A DNA stretch of 34,048 bases. Origin: a virus. Each line of letters starts with the position of its first letter. Within the stretch, counting starts at the first letter, position 1. Position numbers and translations under genes: made by a program. Location of the stretch: the IMG/VR virus record IMGVR_UViG_3300042546_000723, positions 1 through 34,048 of that record, one strand, 5' to 3'. Of the stretch, positions 7,023 through 34,048 are shown piece after piece. The notes below the pieces were generated by a model. It saw only the letters and a list, made by a program, of their open reading frames with translations. It had not been told where the DNA came from and searched no databases.

Positions 7023-7535
7023 CTACTCGTTAGGCTCAAACGCGGCGGGCTCATAGGCCAAACCCGATTTTGGTTTCCATTTGGCGCATAACTCATGGGC
7101 CATGGTCAATTTTCTTTCGACGGGATGCCGTGCCCAACACTCTCGGCAATCCTGATTGAAAACATGGAATCCGTTTTCCGTCCCTTTCACCTGTTCGCAT
7201 TTGGTCGAGTCGATCCAAAACCGGCACGTGTAACAACGCCCGCGCATCGTTTTTGGGTCAATGTTCATTAGCTGTATTGGCTGGTTTGCCGTAATCGATT
7301 GCGGTTTTGGGTTTGGTTGTACAACCGGAAATTGCGTTTCGGGATTGTGTGGGCGTTTTGCGTAGGCCCATAAATAATGCCCTGTTTTTCCGTCCTCGCG
7401 ATCGCATTCGTAAAACGGGCCGAATTTGCTTTGGTCGATGCGTCGCAATCGCCGCGGAAACCATGGGTCGCATTCATAATCCCGGACCAAAATGATTTTG
7501 CCAACGTCGGCGTTGGTGGGTTGGTCATCGCTCAT
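7023..7535 (-). CDS. Cys-rich, probably zinc-binding phage protein of unknown function
   Basis: 170 aa, ATG at 7535 with AAAGGAAAG just upstream inside the repeated linker block. The N-terminal half (about 10-65) has the pattern VGKIILVRDYECDPWFPRRL...YECDRED...HYLWAYAK, which recurs in short phage proteins of unknown role. The C-terminal half has a cluster of cysteines (CYTCRFW, CEQ, DCRECWARHP, ELCAKWKP) suggesting one or two metal sites. It is the last gene of the mini-gene array and precedes the head genes by 32 nt. Confidence 0.6.
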   Translation of the reverse strand: MSDDQPTNADVGKIILVRDYECDPWFPRRLRRIDQSKFGPFYECDREDGKTGHYLWAYAKRPHNPETQFPVVQPNPKPQSITANQPIQLMNIDPKTMRGRCYTCRFWIDSTKCEQVKGTENGFHVFNQDCRECWARHPVERKLTMAHELCAKWKPKSGLAYEPAAFEPNE

Positions 7536-7540
7536 TGTCT

Positions 7541-7577
7541 TTCCTTTCGGCTCGGTGATCCGAGCGTTATGCGTACC
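7541..7577 (-). repeat. Linker repeat R1 (hairpin plus Shine-Dalgarno)
   Basis: Between the stop of the 70-aa gene and the ATG at 7535. It holds the core CGCATAACGCTCGG (- strand), a hairpin with arms 7550-7555 and 7560-7565 and a 4-nt loop, then AAAGGAAAG as ribosome binding site. Nearly identical blocks lie at about 7997-8034 and 8684-8720. Confidence 0.8.
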
Positions 7578-7789
7578 TAATCCGCGATCACCAACGCGGT
7601 GAGGCGTTCCAGCTTTGCAAACAGCTTTTCGCTTGGCCGCTTACCTGTTTTGTAACACGCAATGTATTCGTCCCTTGCCGCGACAAGATCGCGGAGGAAA
7701 TCACGCTCCATCACCAACATTCGGCCTTGCTCGCTGTCGTTCGCAATCTCCGCTGCTTCCAACTCCGTAATCCGTCTGAACTTGCTCAT
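7577..7789 (-). CDS. Small helical protein, tandem paralogue A
   Basis: 70 aa from the ATG at 7789, chosen because it aligns exactly with the start of its paralogue at 8035-8247; in-frame starts further upstream lack a match. The two proteins differ at 8 of 70 positions, mostly in residues 17-26. The sequence looks wholly helical and amphipathic (ERDFLRDLVAARDEYIACYK) with a basic C-terminal helix (GKRPSEKLFAKLERLTALV). No known domain is recognised. It overlaps the 3' end of the preceding 94-aa frame by 89 nt and ends just before linker repeat R1. Confidence 0.65.
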   Translation of the reverse strand: MSKFRRITELEAAEIANDSEQGRMLVMERDFLRDLVAARDEYIACYKTGKRPSEKLFAKLERLTALVIAD

Positions 7790-7985
7790 TGTTCTTGTAC
7801 CCTTTGAACCAATACCAAATTCGCTCAAACCAAAATGGCCGCCCACAATCGCGGCAAATCAACCTGTCATGCGGATTGCCTCGCCAACCTAGAATTTCTG
7901 AACCCCAGAAGAATCCATAACCATCACACCGGCATTGCGGACGACGAACAACGGATTGCACCGACGCCTCATTCGTCTCGCTCAT
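7701..7985 (-). CDS. Small Cys-rich protein of unknown function
   Basis: 94 aa, ATG at 7985 with AGAGGT 8 nt upstream. Cysteines in QCRCDGYGFFWG and LICRDCGRPFWFERIWYWF form a zinc-ribbon-like pair (CxC ... CxxC) within the first 55 residues. An aromatic helix follows. The last 29 codons overlap the start of paralogue A in another frame and look unstructured, so this tail may be the result of a lost stop codon. It lies directly downstream of linker repeat R2. Confidence 0.5.
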   Translation of the reverse strand: MSETNEASVQSVVRRPQCRCDGYGFFWGSEILGWRGNPHDRLICRDCGRPFWFERIWYWFKGYKNNEQVQTDYGVGSSGDCERQRARPNVGDGA

Positions 7986-7996
7986 TCTCGTTACCT

Positions 7997-8034
7997 CTTT
8001 CCTTTCGGCTCGGTGAACCGAGCGTTATGCGTAC
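7997..8034 (-). repeat. Linker repeat R2 (hairpin plus Shine-Dalgarno)
   Basis: Second copy of the linker block: arms 8008-8013 and 8018-8023, loop TGAA on the + strand, followed in the - direction by AAAGGAAAGAGG. It differs from R1 mainly by one base in the loop. It also follows the same gene 3' end (ALVIAD, TAG), so the repeat unit includes the paralogue ends. Confidence 0.8.
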
Positions 8035-8247
8035 CTAATCCGCGATCACCAACGCGGTGAGGCGTTCCAGCTTTGCAAACAGCTTTTCGCTTGGCCGCTT
8101 ACCTGTCTTGTAGCACGCGATGTATTCATCTTTAGCCGCAACGAGGTCGCGGAGAAAATCGCGCTCCATCAACAGCATCCGAACTTGTTCGCAGCCCCTC
8201 GCAATCTCTGCCGCTTCCAATTCTGAAATCCGTCTGAACTTGACCAT
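8035..8247 (-). CDS. Small helical protein, tandem paralogue B
   Basis: 70 aa, ATG at 8247, coupled to the upstream stop as TGATG (shared base 8247), with GGAG 7 nt before it. An ATG at 8253 is too close to that site. It is identical to paralogue A at 62 of 70 positions, including the whole C-terminal 31 residues. All-helical, no domain recognised. The near-identity and shared downstream linker indicate a recent duplication of gene plus linker. Confidence 0.7.
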   Translation of the reverse strand: MVKFRRISELEAAEIARGCEQVRMLLMERDFLRDLVAAKDEYIACYKTGKRPSEKLFAKLERLTALVIAD

Positions 8248-8429
8248 CACCATACTCCAATGAAATCACTGTGTTCGCGGTGTCCGCACTTACTGCAACA
8301 CTGCTCAATACACCACCCAAAACCGTACCTGATCCAATAGCTTCCATCGTATTCGTGCTCACACTCAGAAGAGAACGACGAACAATCGGATGAACCCGAG
8401 TGCTTGATAGTCTGTTTTTCTGAATCCAT
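8247..8429 (-). CDS. Small Cys-rich protein of unknown function
   Basis: 60 aa, ATG at 8429 with GAGGAG 6 nt upstream. The N-terminal 30 residues are Ser/Glu-rich. The C-terminal half has CIEQCCSKCGH near residue 40, a likely metal-binding knuckle, with aromatic residues before it (YWIRYGFGW). The stop codon overlaps the next start as TGATG. It may be one of the minor host-takeover proteins common between early and late phage genes, but nothing specific is recognisable. Confidence 0.55.
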   Translation of the reverse strand: MDSEKQTIKHSGSSDCSSFSSECEHEYDGSYWIRYGFGWCIEQCCSKCGHREHSDFIGVW

Positions 8430-8430
8430 G

Positions 8431-8468
8431 TTTTTCTCCTCGCACCGGGTTATCCGAGCGTTATGCGT
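8431..8468 (-). repeat. Linker repeat R3 (degenerate copy)
   Basis: Shares CGCATAACGCTCGGAT with R1 on the - strand, but the second hairpin arm has diverged (CCGGTG in place of CCGAGC). A Shine-Dalgarno GAGGAGAAAA follows, in the same relative place before the ATG at 8429. Confidence 0.7.
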
Positions 8469-8469
8469 G

Positions 8470-8682
8470 TTAAAACCACGCCTGATCTTTCCGAAGACCG
8501 CTGCCATTGCAGTTTGGGCATGTTCCAGGTCCATCATCGTCCCAATCCCATCTGCCTGATTCTTGGCAAACGGAATCGACAATTCCTTCTCCACAACACG
8601 ACATGCAACTTGGTTCGCATCCGTCGTCATCATCGAAGTCATCCATATCCGAATCGTATGCTGATTGCCGTATATCGCTCAT
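8470..8682 (-). CDS. Small acidic zinc-finger-like protein (DnaJ-type Cys motifs)
   Basis: 70 aa, ATG at 8682 with GAGAGGAAAA upstream. Residues 9-22 are very acidic (DSDMDDFDDDDG). Four Cys pairs follow: CEPSC, CC, CQ and CPNCNGSG near residue 55. The CxxCxGxG pattern is that of DnaJ-type zinc fingers. It may bind protein partners; no catalytic domain is present. It sits between linker repeats R3 and R4. Confidence 0.6.
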   Translation of the reverse strand: MSDIRQSAYDSDMDDFDDDDGCEPSCMSCCGEGIVDSVCQESGRWDWDDDGPGTCPNCNGSGLRKDQAWF

Positions 8683-8683
8683 T

Positions 8684-8756
8684 GGTTTTCCTCTCGGCTC
8701 GGTGAACCGAGCGTTATACTTTTCGCAATCTTGAAAAACGCGTCTGTTGATATGGT
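8684..8756 (-). repeat. Linker repeat R4, long copy carrying a decayed HTH-gene 3' end
   Basis: The longest copy outside R5. In its first half the - strand reads as the amino acids ITISTDAFFKIAKSIT, matching the C-terminal part of the intact HTH protein at 9300-9596 (ITISTDAFLKIARSIT). The second half is the hairpin (arms 8697-8702, 8707-8712) plus Shine-Dalgarno. The nucleotide match to 9328-9397 is about 80% by eye over 70 nt. Confidence 0.75.
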
Positions 8757-8770
8757 GATTTTTAGAACCA

Positions 8771-9316
8771 CTAAAATTTTAATGAAGTATTCCAACTAAC
8801 AATCGAACCCGCTAAACCCGACGTTTTTAACCGCTGTGCATCATCGTTACCGTATGCAACTAAACACGATGGGCCGCCGCTATTGCCCTTTGCCCTAGAT
8901 CCGTCCGGTTTGTAAAAAAACAAACGCCCATGAATAAACATTATCGCCGTTGCTCGGTTCCATACGTGTTTCACGAAACCTTCTGTTTCCGTTCTGGCAA
9001 AAATTAGGGCTGTTCCTCGGTTATGGTCCGCAAGACGTTCAACCCATGCCCAAACTTCGCTGTATGGCGGATTCAAACAAAACCTAGCAAACCAAACGCG
9101 TTTAAGTCCGTTTTGATCGATTCCGAATGCGTTTTCTGCGCATACCCACGGTTGCGGAGTGCATTGGCATGGGTCCAAATCAAATGGCCCAAGTGCGTCG
9201 ATTATGTTTTTTGGTGTGATCCACGAATCCGTTGCTCCACGGTTTGGTAGGGTGTAACCTCCAATTCCTCGCGTTACGGCAACGAGTTTCTCAATGGCGT
9301 TATTCGTTTGGTTCAT
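8771..9316 (-). CDS. dam: Phage DNA N6-adenine methyltransferase (Dam_phage family)
   Basis: 181 aa from the ATG at 9316, which overlaps the 3' end of the upstream HTH gene by 17 nt. Family features: WITPKNIIDALGPFDLDPC near residues 35-53, the catalytic motif NPPY (FCLNPPYSEVWAW, about 84-96), LIFARTETEGFVKHVW, and the C-terminal LVAYGNDDAQRL. Size matches PF05869 proteins of 150-180 aa. The enzyme transfers a methyl group from S-adenosylmethionine to adenine N6, probably protecting phage DNA from host restriction. No cognate restriction enzyme is adjacent. The base composition is a little AT-richer than the flanking genes. Confidence 0.88.
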   Translation of the reverse strand: MNQTNNAIEKLVAVTRGIGGYTLPNRGATDSWITPKNIIDALGPFDLDPCQCTPQPWVCAENAFGIDQNGLKRVWFARFCLNPPYSEVWAWVERLADHNRGTALIFARTETEGFVKHVWNRATAIMFIHGRLFFYKPDGSRAKGNSGGPSCLVAYGNDDAQRLKTSGLAGSIVSWNTSLKF

Positions 9317-9596
9317 GCGTTTTATCGCTTTCTTTTCGCTCGGCGAATCCAATAGTTATGCTCCGTGCAATCTTTAAAAACGCGTCGGTTGATATGGTTA
9401 TTTTCTGGGTGGCAATCTGCGATAGGTAGGTTGAACTTAAACCGGTGCGGCGGCCCAATTCTCGCAACGTAATTGATTGCGTTGCGGTTGCAATCAACGC
9501 GGGGCCCTCGTTTTCGCAAATGTATTTCGCTAGCCGTTGGTACTCTTTAAATTGCTCAATCCGTTGAACTGCAATTCGGATTTGTGCTGTGTTCAT
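9300..9596 (-). CDS. Small HTH (XRE/Cro-like) DNA-binding protein
   Basis: 98 aa, ATG at 9596 with a strong GGAGGT Shine-Dalgarno 8 nt upstream. Residues about 40-85 form a Cro/XRE-like helix-turn-helix: ITLRELGRRTGLSSTYLSQIATQKITISTDAFLKIAR. It probably regulates phage genes, as Cro-type repressors do. It overlaps the upstream gene by 41 nt. Its 3' end (9328-9397) is the probable source of linker repeat R4. Confidence 0.7.
   Translation of the reverse strand: MNTAQIRIAVQRIEQFKEYQRLAKYICENEGPALIATATQSITLRELGRRTGLSSTYLSQIATQKITISTDAFLKIARSITIGFAERKESDKTHEPNE
9328..9397 (-). repeat. Repeat R5: HTH-gene 3' end matching linker R4
   Basis: This stretch lies inside the intact HTH gene (codons for ITISTDAF...GFAERKE) and aligns with 8684-8756. 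It contains the diverged counterpart of the linker core (GCATAACTATTGG on the - strand). It suggests that the linkers arose from a duplicated gene end. Confidence 0.65.
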
Positions 9597-13652: not shown

Positions 13653-13930
13653 TGTTCTCGCGCTTGCAACGCGGCCTCGTTTACGGGGCCATTATGAACA
13701 ACCCAACCATTGCGGAATTGGTCGCGACGCTCGCGAATGAATTGCGCCGCGTGCAACCAGTAACGCTTCCGCGTGTTGCGTACACTCTCGACGAAATCGC
13801 CGCCATGTGCGGCGTGTCTAAACGTGTCGTCGAGGGCCAAATCGAAATCGGGGCATTAAAAACAAAACGCATCGGCCGTTCGCTATGCGTTACTGCTCGG
13901 GAATTGGAACGGTGGCTAAACCATGGCTAG
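13649..13930 (+). CDS. xis: Excisionase-like MerR-type HTH protein
   Basis: 93 aa from ATG 13649, overlapping the previous stop (ATGATG cluster, 13649-13654). An ATG at 13694 is possible but less well supported. Residues about 45-90 form a MerR/excisionase-type winged helix: YTLDEIAAMCGVSKRVVEGQIEIGALKTKRIGR followed by CVTARELERWL. Such proteins bind DNA and direct integrase toward excision, or act as simple regulators. It overlaps the integrase by 8 nt, as xis often does. Confidence 0.7.
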   Translation: MMFSRLQRGLVYGAIMNNPTIAELVATLANELRRVQPVTLPRVAYTLDEIAAMCGVSKRVVEGQIEIGALKTKRIGRSLCVTARELERWLNHG

Positions 13931-15080
13931 CGTGTGGCAACACAAACGGGGCGGGTGGTATCTCCAAATCGTTTTGCCAACGCAACGACGCGTGAAAATC
14001 TACCTTGGCAAAATCACGGCCAAACACGCGCACAACCTAGCCCGTCGAATCGACGAATTAGGAAACCTGGTTCGCCTCGGCGAACAACCAACGCCGGACC
14101 TGGCCGCCTGGTTGATTGCTTTGGATCCCGCAATGGTTGAACGGCTCGCCGAGTGCGGTCTAACACGAACGTGGACGAAACCCGCGACGGCCCCGAGGTT
14201 GCTAGATTTTTGGACGCAATACGTCGATGGCCGCACGGATTTTGCACCCTCGACAATCAAGGGGTGGAAAACGGCGCGTTTGCATGTAGAGGCTAGGTTC
14301 CCTACGCAAACCCTCGACGAAATCACGGCGTTGGATGCGAAAACATGGGCCCGCGATCTTTCGCAAGTTGTCGCCCCCACACACGCCGCGAAAATCATTG
14401 GTCGCGTTTCGCAAGTGTACGCGGCTGCGATCGATGGCCGCGTCGTTTCGGAAAATCCGTTTGCGGGAATCAAAACGAGTCGCGAAATCGACGCAACGCG
14501 CAAATTGTATGTAACGCCCGAAACGTCGTTGGCCGTGTTGGACAAATTCGCCACGTTGGAGGGTCGCGCGTTATTCGCATTGGCTCGCTGGTGTGGTTTG
14601 CGTGTTCCCCATGAACCATTGGCGTTGACGTGGCGAAACGTCGATTGGGAACAAATGCGGTTGCAAATTCCGGCCGACACAAAAACCGGCGGTCGCATCG
14701 TTCCCATTTTCCCCGAGGTCGCCAATGAACTAAACGCGTTGGATTCGGCGGCCAAAACCGGCGCGATTTATGTTTTCAATCGTGCTAGAAATTCCGCGGC
14801 CACCGAATGGCGTCGATGGTTGCTTGCCGCGATCGCGGCGGCTCACCTAGAACCATGGCCGCACGCCTGGCACAACCTTAGAGCGAGTTGCAGAACCGAT
14901 TTGGAGGAACGATTTCCAACGCACGTTTGCGATGCGTGGTTGGGTCATTCCTCACGCGTAGCCAAGGACCATTATTTACGCGTTACCCCGGACCATTGGG
15001 CGGCGGCTCGCGAAACAATGCCGCGCACGGCACAACCACCGGCGCACGGCCCGGCGCACGGCACCGAGGGGGTTTTGTAG
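13923..15080 (+). CDS. int: Tyrosine-type site-specific integrase
   Basis: 385 aa, ATG at 13923. The catalytic set is visible: R227 (WCGLRVPHEPLALTW), K254 (ADTKTGG), H327 and R330 (WHNLRAS), H342 (WLGHSS) and Y351 (AKDHYLRVT). The N-terminal 80 residues are an arm-type DNA-binding-like region, and about 90-190 a core-binding SAM-like domain. It integrates the phage by attP x attB recombination. The WLGHSSRVAKDHYLRVTPDHW tail resembles planctomycete integrases known to me. The C-terminal residues 370-385 (AHGPAHGTEGVL) are encoded by DNA containing three copies of a 9-mer repeat. The gene is expressed away from the tail operon. Confidence 0.93.
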   Translation: MASVWQHKRGGWYLQIVLPTQRRVKIYLGKITAKHAHNLARRIDELGNLVRLGEQPTPDLAAWLIALDPAMVERLAECGLTRTWTKPATAPRLLDFWTQYVDGRTDFAPSTIKGWKTARLHVEARFPTQTLDEITALDAKTWARDLSQVVAPTHAAKIIGRVSQVYAAAIDGRVVSENPFAGIKTSREIDATRKLYVTPETSLAVLDKFATLEGRALFALARWCGLRVPHEPLALTWRNVDWEQMRLQIPADTKTGGRIVPIFPEVANELNALDSAAKTGAIYVFNRARNSAATEWRRWLLAAIAAAHLEPWPHAWHNLRASCRTDLEERFPTHVCDAWLGHSSRVAKDHYLRVTPDHWAAARETMPRTAQPPAHGPAHGTEGVL

Positions 15081-33167: not shown

Positions 33168-34048
33168 CTATGAACCCTTGATGAACGAAATACAATCCCA
33201 CCGGTCGTCCCCGGAAACATACTCGAACGCCACGCGGTCGATAACGTTCGCCGCCGTGCTAATCGTCACGGTGGCTAAATCGCCGCGGAACCGATATTTG
33301 GTATCCCATGTGACGGTACGGCTGCCGCTGCTATCCTGTTGGAGTCGGAAAATTACCACGCGGCCATCGATGGCGTTGGTTGGGTTGGCGATGGTTCGGT
33401 TGCCACCCAATACAACATGGAATTTATTACCGGTGGCGGCGTCTACGTTGATGGTGGCGGCATCGGTCAACGTTTCCACCTTCAAATCCAACGTGTCGTT
33501 AAAAGTTTTAACGCCGTCGATGGCCTGGGCGGTGGTGGTCAACACCACGCCGGATAAACTCAACGTGTTGGCAGCAAACGCTAAACCGCTCCCCAAACTC
33601 GCCGTAGAAATCGTTGTTCCGTTCCCGGTTATTAGTCCGGTTAACGTGGTGGTGGTCGCTGTGCTAACGGAATTGGGACCGGCCGGACCGGTGGCACCCG
33701 TGGCACCTGTCGCCCCGGTGGCTCCGGTGGCTCCGGTATCCCCTCGCGGGATCGAGAAATTGAATACGGCGGCGGACGATGTACCGGCATTGGTAACCGT
33801 CGCACTACTCCCGGCGGCTCCGGTCGAAACGGTCCCAACGGCGATGGTCGCCGCGGATCCGGCGGCACCCGTGGCACCTGTCGGCCCCTGAGGGCCAGTT
33901 GCACCCGTGGCACCCGTCGCCCCGGTATCCCCTCGCGGGATCGAGAAATTGAATACGGCGGCGGACGATGTACCGGCATTGGTAACCGTCGCACTACTCC
34001 CGGCGGCTCCGGTCGAAACGGTCCCAACGGCGATGGTCGCCGCGGATC
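33168..34048 (-). CDS. Collagen-like phage tail fibre / structural protein, remainder
   Basis: Continuation of the fibre gene that starts at 440; once joined, the product is 405 aa and ends at 33168. Two more IPRG modules are seen ([17 protein letters not shown]...AAVFNFSIPRGDTG), each followed by short Gly-X-Y runs, then a C-terminal domain from about residue 240: LITGNGTTIST, AIDGVKTFNDTLDLKVETLT, NPTNAIDGRVVIFRLQQDSSGSRTVTW and a final VAFEYVSGDDRWDCISFI. The last part is a common end of phage fibres and minor structural proteins. The 189-bp tandem repeat suggests copy-number variation. Confidence 0.8.
   Translation of the reverse strand, partial: SAATIAVGTVSTGAAGSSATVTNAGTSSAAVFNFSIPRGDTGATGATGATGPQGPTGATGAAGSAATIAVGTVSTGAAGSSATVTNAGTSSAAVFNFSIPRGDTGATGATGATGATGATGPAGPNSVSTATTTTLTGLITGNGTTISTASLGSGLAFAANTLSLSGVVLTTTAQAIDGVKTFNDTLDLKVETLTDAATINVDAATGNKFHVVLGGNRTIANPTNAIDGRVVIFRLQQDSSGSRTVTWDTKYRFRGDLATVTISTAANVIDRVAFEYVSGDDRWDCISFIKGS
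33757..34048. repeat. 189-bp tandem repeat in the fibre gene
   Basis: The unit starting AAATTGAATACGG at 33757 recurs at 33946 (period 189 nt, 63 codons). A third related module with diverged sequence lies at about 230-350. The unit is a multiple of three, so gain or loss of copies keeps the frame. Short-read assembly may have collapsed copies here. Confidence 0.85.
33946..34048. repeat. Terminal direct repeat, right copy
   Basis: Identical to bases 1-103; see the left copy. If the genome is circular, this stretch should be counted once. Confidence 0.9.

Follow-up and report, generated by a model that had tools for sequence, protein, structure and literature searches.

Where small genes alternate with a repeated linker that ends in a hairpin, a Shine-Dalgarno (SD) stretch and an ATG, the question is what the linker is and whether it allows the genes behind it to be exchanged. 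The window analyzed here is the whole IMG/VR virus record IMGVR_UViG_3300042546_000723 (34,048 bases), and the genes between 7.0 and 9.6 kb, where the linkers lie, are all on the minus strand. The original prediction saw in this region four short genes joined by linkers derived from the end of an HTH gene, and took the linkers to be recombination seams that supply a translation signal. We conclude with considerable confidence that the region is an integron cassette array of the CALIN type in a temperate phage of Pirellula-like planctomycetes, that its attC recombination sites bear the start codon of the next gene, and that its cassettes would be moved by an integron integrase.

The record encodes virion and packaging proteins, namely a portal protein, a large terminase and a head/protease protein, as expected of a phage genome. 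Given these genes and a recombinase of the Phage_integrase family, the window is a phage, probably a temperate one. The recombinase, the only one found, was considered as an integron integrase (IntI) and ruled out, since it does not match TIGR02249. Among 199 genomes of the Pirellula family, 11 hold relatives of the terminase, at no more than 44% identity, an indication that the hosts belong there. One collagen-like repeat region with a 189-base period occupies both ends of the record (1–480 and 33641–34048); the genome is therefore probably circular or permuted, and the record broken within a tail-fibre-like gene. Scans of the window with Rfam (gathering thresholds) and for tRNAs returned nothing. 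Among GenBank phages, BLAST with the region found weak matches only. Neither the HTH protein nor the phage gene that follows linker R1 had an IMG/VR relative at the sensitivity of the search used.

Coordinates of the predicted features of the window, and loci of the phage integron integrases
Feature	Position	Strand	Basis
attC 5' half (linker R1: R'', L'', hairpin, SD, ATG)	7541..7575	-	profile match, 46.7 bits
C_a ORF2 (small helical protein, SKFRRITELE...)	7577..7789	-	97% identical in L032-L034
C_a ORF1 (Cys-rich)	7701..7985	-	start codon within attC R2; frame crosses crossover
Complete attC (linker R2)	7941..8032	-	covariance model R1, 67.2 bits, E 2.9e-17
C_b ORF2 (C_a ORF2 paralogue)	8035..8253	-	100% identical protein in L004
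C_b ORF1 (Cys-rich)	8250..8429	-	start codon within attC R3; DNA identical to L004 from crossover on
Complete attC, other sequence type (linker R3)	8375..8468	-	covariance model R1, 57.7 bits, E 2.3e-14
C_c, small Asp/Cys-rich ORF between half-site R4 and attC R3	8470..8682	-	ORF; no Pfam family
attC 5' half (linker R4), after copy of HTH gene tail	8690..8721	-	profile match, 35.3 bits
Dam-type N6-adenine methyltransferase between half-sites R5 and R4	8771..9316	-	PF05869, 38.5 bits (cut-off 28.1)
HTH protein gene, end overlapping R5	9300..9596	-	PF01381, 21.2 bits, just below cut-off of 23
Degenerate 5' half-site (R5), 3' end of HTH gene, before Dam-like gene	9320..9365	-	profile match, 15.5 bits
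Phage-type tyrosine integrase	13923..15080	+	PF00589, 31.6 bits; no NCBIfam family, hence no TIGR02249 match
Phage IntI loci	L214-L219 (records G226, G242, G239, G235, G243, G253)		

The repeated linkers with hairpin and SD proved to be real. The record of 34,048 bases has exactly three copies of their core, CGCATAACGCTCGG, all on the minus strand (7560, 8018 and 8454), as against none in the control, and R1, R2 and R4 have the hairpin GCTCGG-n-CCGAGC, the SD stretch and the ATG. In the sense of the genes the linker reads GCATAACGCTCGG..CACCGAGCCGAAAGGAAAG..ATG; the families D5, D8 and D14 of the repeat search are longer linkers. A pattern scan of IMG/VR, whose records are of uneven viral status (terminase or portal matches in 8 of 24 in a first set, plus one weak match), returned 21 contigs. 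The whole linker is present in 19 of them, other viral contigs in which different, unrelated small genes lie between the same linkers, and it also occurs in three Pirellula/Planctomycetota MAG contigs; the linker is thus neither absent elsewhere nor tied to a fixed order of genes. The first genome scan used a pattern with 4-base spacing and gave no matches, because most sites have 5-base spacing. Matches in L012, L022, L027 and L028, from which the AACGCT arm is absent, were taken as chance.

Conservation does not stop at the ATG, where the linker had been thought to end, and runs about 40 bases further into the gene as codons for MSETNEASVQSVV, beyond which the genes diverge. The reason is that this stretch is the 3' arm of an attC site and is coding. 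The 5' arm CGAACGCTCGGATT-CACCGAGC pairs with the downstream arm GCTTCGGTGCAATCCGTTGTTCG, the second arm has an unpaired base, and the ATG lies in the loop. The inverted arm pairs R''/R' and L''/L', the AAC...GTT cores and a pairing kept by covariation together identify the element as attC, and an extrahelical base is seen at alignment column 79, with a bulge near column 71-72 of the 3' arm. Extrahelical bases of attC steer strand choice. Other sites of the same loci have different arm sequences and retain the pairing: across 25 sites, 90.6% of the cells are paired, double changes number 127 as compared with 41.7 in shuffled data (0/500), and sliding the arm partner lowers pairing to 26-47%.

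The covariance model was built from these sites, some of them start-bearing, and finds hundreds of ordinary sites; its training sites exclude the window, in which it recognized R2 and R3 and nothing else. In R2, the ATG of the next ORF is at 7985, inside the site, and the predicted crossover G^TT has its G at 7949; in R3, with arms AACGCTCGGATAACCCGGTGC and GCACTCGGGTTCATCCGATTGTTCG, the corresponding positions are 8429 and 8383. Judged by sequence, R2 and R3 are complete attC sites whose R''/R' and L''/L' arms are paired, and R3, once described as degenerate, is a site of another sequence type. R1, R2 and R4 had been called near-identical, and this holds for the core, hairpin, SD and ATG but not for the 3' arm: neither R1 nor R4 has one or is matched by the covariance model. 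Some sites elsewhere are chimeric (L005 4984-5076, L013 8162-8254 and L004 2343-2430), with 5' and 3' arms of different types that are expected to pair poorly. Two viral contigs also hold a second intergenic repeat of about 120 bases (L004 4080-4200 and L005 5395-5520; AACTATAGATTCTC..GAGCCTGGGAGAAT..CAGGTGAGCCGTGCATAATGTTC..) with an SD and ATG at its end, to which the attC model gives no match.

R1, R4 and R5 would be remnants of attC joined to phage genes. All three retain the hairpin, SD and ATG, R1 leading into the phage gene at 7023-7535 and R4 into cassette C_c. As predicted, R4 is accompanied by a copy of the HTH gene end that matches R5 (84% between 8713-8762 and 9355-9404, repeat family D14); the two copies flank the Dam-like gene. 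Each copy runs into an attC half-site, an arrangement that suggests an insertion in the course of which the end of the gene was duplicated or regenerated. The proposed origin of the linker from the HTH gene end was not borne out, since sites of this type follow unrelated genes both in Pirellula integrons and in many phages, and R4 and R5 are half-sites joined to the HTH tail. With two complete attC sites 436 bases apart in a window that has no intI, the region is a CALIN; a complete integron would have an IntI gene and an attI site, and TIGR02249 found no IntI in the window. What speaks against reading it as an array is that only two sites are complete and the other three linkers are half-sites.

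A cassette is the stretch between successive G^TT. What had been counted as four short genes are five small ORFs, grouped into three units. The protein of C_a ORF1 is 88% identical to one in L032 that lies behind a different attC; over the first 40 codons, 15 codon changes are synonymous and 3 nonsynonymous. A search of GenBank phages with the protein of C_a ORF2 gave no matches. ORF1 and ORF2 of C_a lie in different frames and share about 89 bases (7701-7789), an overlap retained in L032. A 252-base repeat, D2 (7538-7789 versus 7996-8247, 88%), corresponds to the second ORF of two distinct cassettes; its origin by local tandem duplication was considered and dropped, as the cassette of each copy occurs separately elsewhere. 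Sister arrays carry methyltransferases, a Lar restriction-alleviation protein and DUF4326.

The comparison of cassettes between phages bears on where exchange takes place. C_b and the cassette in L004 have identical DNA for about 300 bases starting from the predicted crossover G^TT, and the attC sites that precede them differ. Likewise, C_a recurs in L032/L033 behind another attC. Cassettes are, accordingly, common to several phages, with a left edge at the predicted G^TT. The attC downstream of the same cassette also differs between phages, and the sequence of C_b towards its 3' end is that of the neighbouring C_a, not of the L004 cassette. These two observations suggest that ordinary homologous exchange probably acts as well.

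If cassettes move by site-specific recombination, then the question is which integrase moves them. No IntI above cut-off was found in the window or in 20 linker-bearing records. In the Pirellula family, 75 of 149 genomes have an IntI above cut-off and 53 of 60 have attC matches, in arrays that include some of more than 100 sites; on L025, a contig of a Pirellula MAG, attC lies beside an IntI scoring 409.7 bits against a TIGR02249 cut-off of 265. In this contig (132-5742) and in L112-L116 (G014), IntI stands at the end of the array in cassette orientation, the reverse of class 1 integrons. Among 31 phage records selected by the attC 3' arm, 13 of which have portal matches, six carry an IntI above the TIGR02249 cut-off, five of these six also having a portal gene, and each of the six IntI has an attC array nearby in the same orientation. 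In a tree, the phage IntI are split from 31 chromosomal IntI of the Pirellula family with support of 100/98, a grouping that the long branches of L214 and L217 weaken. Of the six, five (two of them identical to each other) show 53-60% identity to their closest relative among the phage IntI and 37-41% to the closest among the chromosomal ones; L214, the sixth, shows 44% to chromosomal and 38% to phage IntI. With IntI present in the host family and in 6 of the 31 phage records, either the host or a related phage could supply the integrase. A contig with IntI and terminase together (L196) has no attC, and the prophage neighbourhoods of terminase relatives gave nine attC matches in 3 of 10 stretches.

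Integron cassettes are usually described as having their own start and depending mainly on a distant promoter. Because the initial count of start-bearing attC came from loci found with the linker pattern, the count was redone on phage records picked by the attC 3'-arm pattern alone and scanned with the covariance model. A site was scored as start-bearing if an SD-preceded ATG opens a frame of at least 30 codons past the crossover. Such sites make up 36 of 101 distinct phage sites as compared with 7 of 358 chromosomal sites from 12 genomes, an uneven sample with 139 sites from one genome (Fisher p 7e-20); with a stricter SD the numbers are 34 and 4. Host contig L025, which has IntI, holds three. 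About one third of the predicted attC sites in the related phages thus carry an SD and ATG in the loop, with a frame that crosses the crossover into the next cassette. In all 34 strict phage sites the frame continues without a stop for 30 codons or more of the cassette. Of the 34 cassettes behind these start-bearing attC, 2 have an SD and start of their own within 60 bases past the crossover, versus 30 of the 67 cassettes that follow ordinary attC in phages. Homologous cassettes were compared in 15 pairs: similarity between the proteins sets in with the codon directly past the crossover, and the frame is kept behind different attC; the differences fall 38/28/105 on codon positions 1/2/3, several pairs being near-copies and most of this signal coming from a few divergent pairs. 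An example is a C5-methyltransferase cassette in L009, in which the Pfam domain begins 7 codons past the crossover and the first in-frame ATG is codon 105. The phase of the frame at the crossover (0/1/2) is 18/17/1 in one set and 37/17/0 in the other, phase 2 being nearly absent.

We interpret these results to mean that an integron integrase, supplied by the host or by a related phage given that the window phage has none, would recognize the folded bottom strand of attC and would insert, remove or reorder cassettes. A cassette landing behind a start-bearing attC would then be translated in frame, with its N-terminus supplied by the attC as peptides such as MSETNEASVQSVVRR. The view of the linkers as recombination seams supplying a translation signal is upheld to this extent, the predicted attC identity accounting for the seam and the SD and start serving the next gene. 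We further propose, as the probable though less secure extension, that planctomycete phages own an integron lineage, with a phage-type IntI in some of them and start-less cassettes entered in frame from an SD, start and N-terminal codons borne by attC, so that exchange alters the N-terminus. The benefit is likely to be that small accessory and anti-host genes are densely packed and can be swapped, as the methyltransferases and the Lar antirestriction protein of the sister arrays suggest.

One could envision that the sites derive from attC and see no integrase action in the phages, the linkers offering short homology for recombination between co-infecting phages. The lack of IntI in the window and the first 20 records, the chimeric attC with arms of two types, and the 3' end of C_b exchanged with C_a would all fit. 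We consider this unlikely because the left edge of the cassettes coincides with the integrase cleavage point despite differing flanking attC, because arm pairing is maintained in 101 phage sites, and because IntI is present in 6 of 31 records. In another scenario, the ATG in attC would start a short leader only, coupled by termination and reinitiation to a start inside the cassette, and the crossing of the frame would be incidental. Such a mechanism has been described (PMC8876359), and an upstream stop often lies near attC. The open frames of all 34 strict cases, the position of the L009 methyltransferase domain so far ahead of an in-frame ATG, and a third-position bias that follows the attC-started frame make this very unlikely.

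A further possibility is that the linkers are start-associated regulatory repeats like SAS/ESAS, their hairpin and SD serving expression with no site-specific recombination. Hairpin, SD and ATG are indeed conserved jointly before many small genes, and half-sites R1 and R4 could act in this way. The second covarying arm downstream of the ATG, the beginning of cassette identity at G^TT, and the long arrays that the same sites form beside integron integrases leave this explanation highly improbable. We therefore retain the interpretation of an integrase-driven cassette array with start-bearing attC.

A recombination site that is itself coding would guarantee the translation of any cassette behind it. 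It would be a natural example of in-frame gene exchange, in which small phage genes could swap with their expression kept, and a possible route for cassettes between phage and host in an environmental phylum. There is a practical side too. ACID annotation limits the overlap of ORF and attC to 15 bp (PMC2674596), and under such limits start-bearing cassette genes would be truncated or missed.

The linkers had been thought to belong to no named system, yet they are attC, and cassette arrays in phages have been on record since 2023. Qi et al. described phage-borne CALINs, and some phages with complete integrons, carrying small accessory genes that include methyltransferases; five of six attC tested from phage CALINs were functional (PMC9892861). 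Like the window, those CALINs are attC clusters without IntI. That survey did not include planctomycete phages and makes no mention of start codons or translation, whereas here the following gene begins within many of the attC, and a distinct group of IntI is present in some of the phages. The attC of phages TJE1 and P12002L were not found by the phage-site model (best 15.3 bits), so that no comparison with them was made. In the literature covered, which took in few subscription papers, we found no report of an attC start codon opening the following cassette's own frame. In cluster K mycobacteriophages, SAS/ESAS repeats lie at gene starts with an SD and inverted repeats like the linkers (PMC3203893). 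Such repeats lie only upstream of the start; the element described here spans the start, and its conserved second attC arm lies in coding sequence. To our knowledge, SAS/ESAS repeats have no link to integrons. Planctomycete attC have been modelled (PMC8352920) and planctomycete IntI noted (PMC2426708), and the chromosomal integrons have the same attC architecture and IntI family as the phage sites; they differ in that 2% of their attC are start-bearing versus about one third in phages. A parallel in translation is ORF-11 of attI1, which overlaps the crossover, together with the short ORFs of class 1 attC sites, for which a role in reinitiation has been proposed (PMC8876359). There, as here, a frame begins in the recombination site, overlaps the crossover and aids translation of the next cassette. 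There, however, the frame is a short leader, with reinitiation at the cassette's own start, whereas here it is the main ORF of the cassette; and ORF-11 sits in attI1, whereas here the start site is attC itself, repeated in every array.
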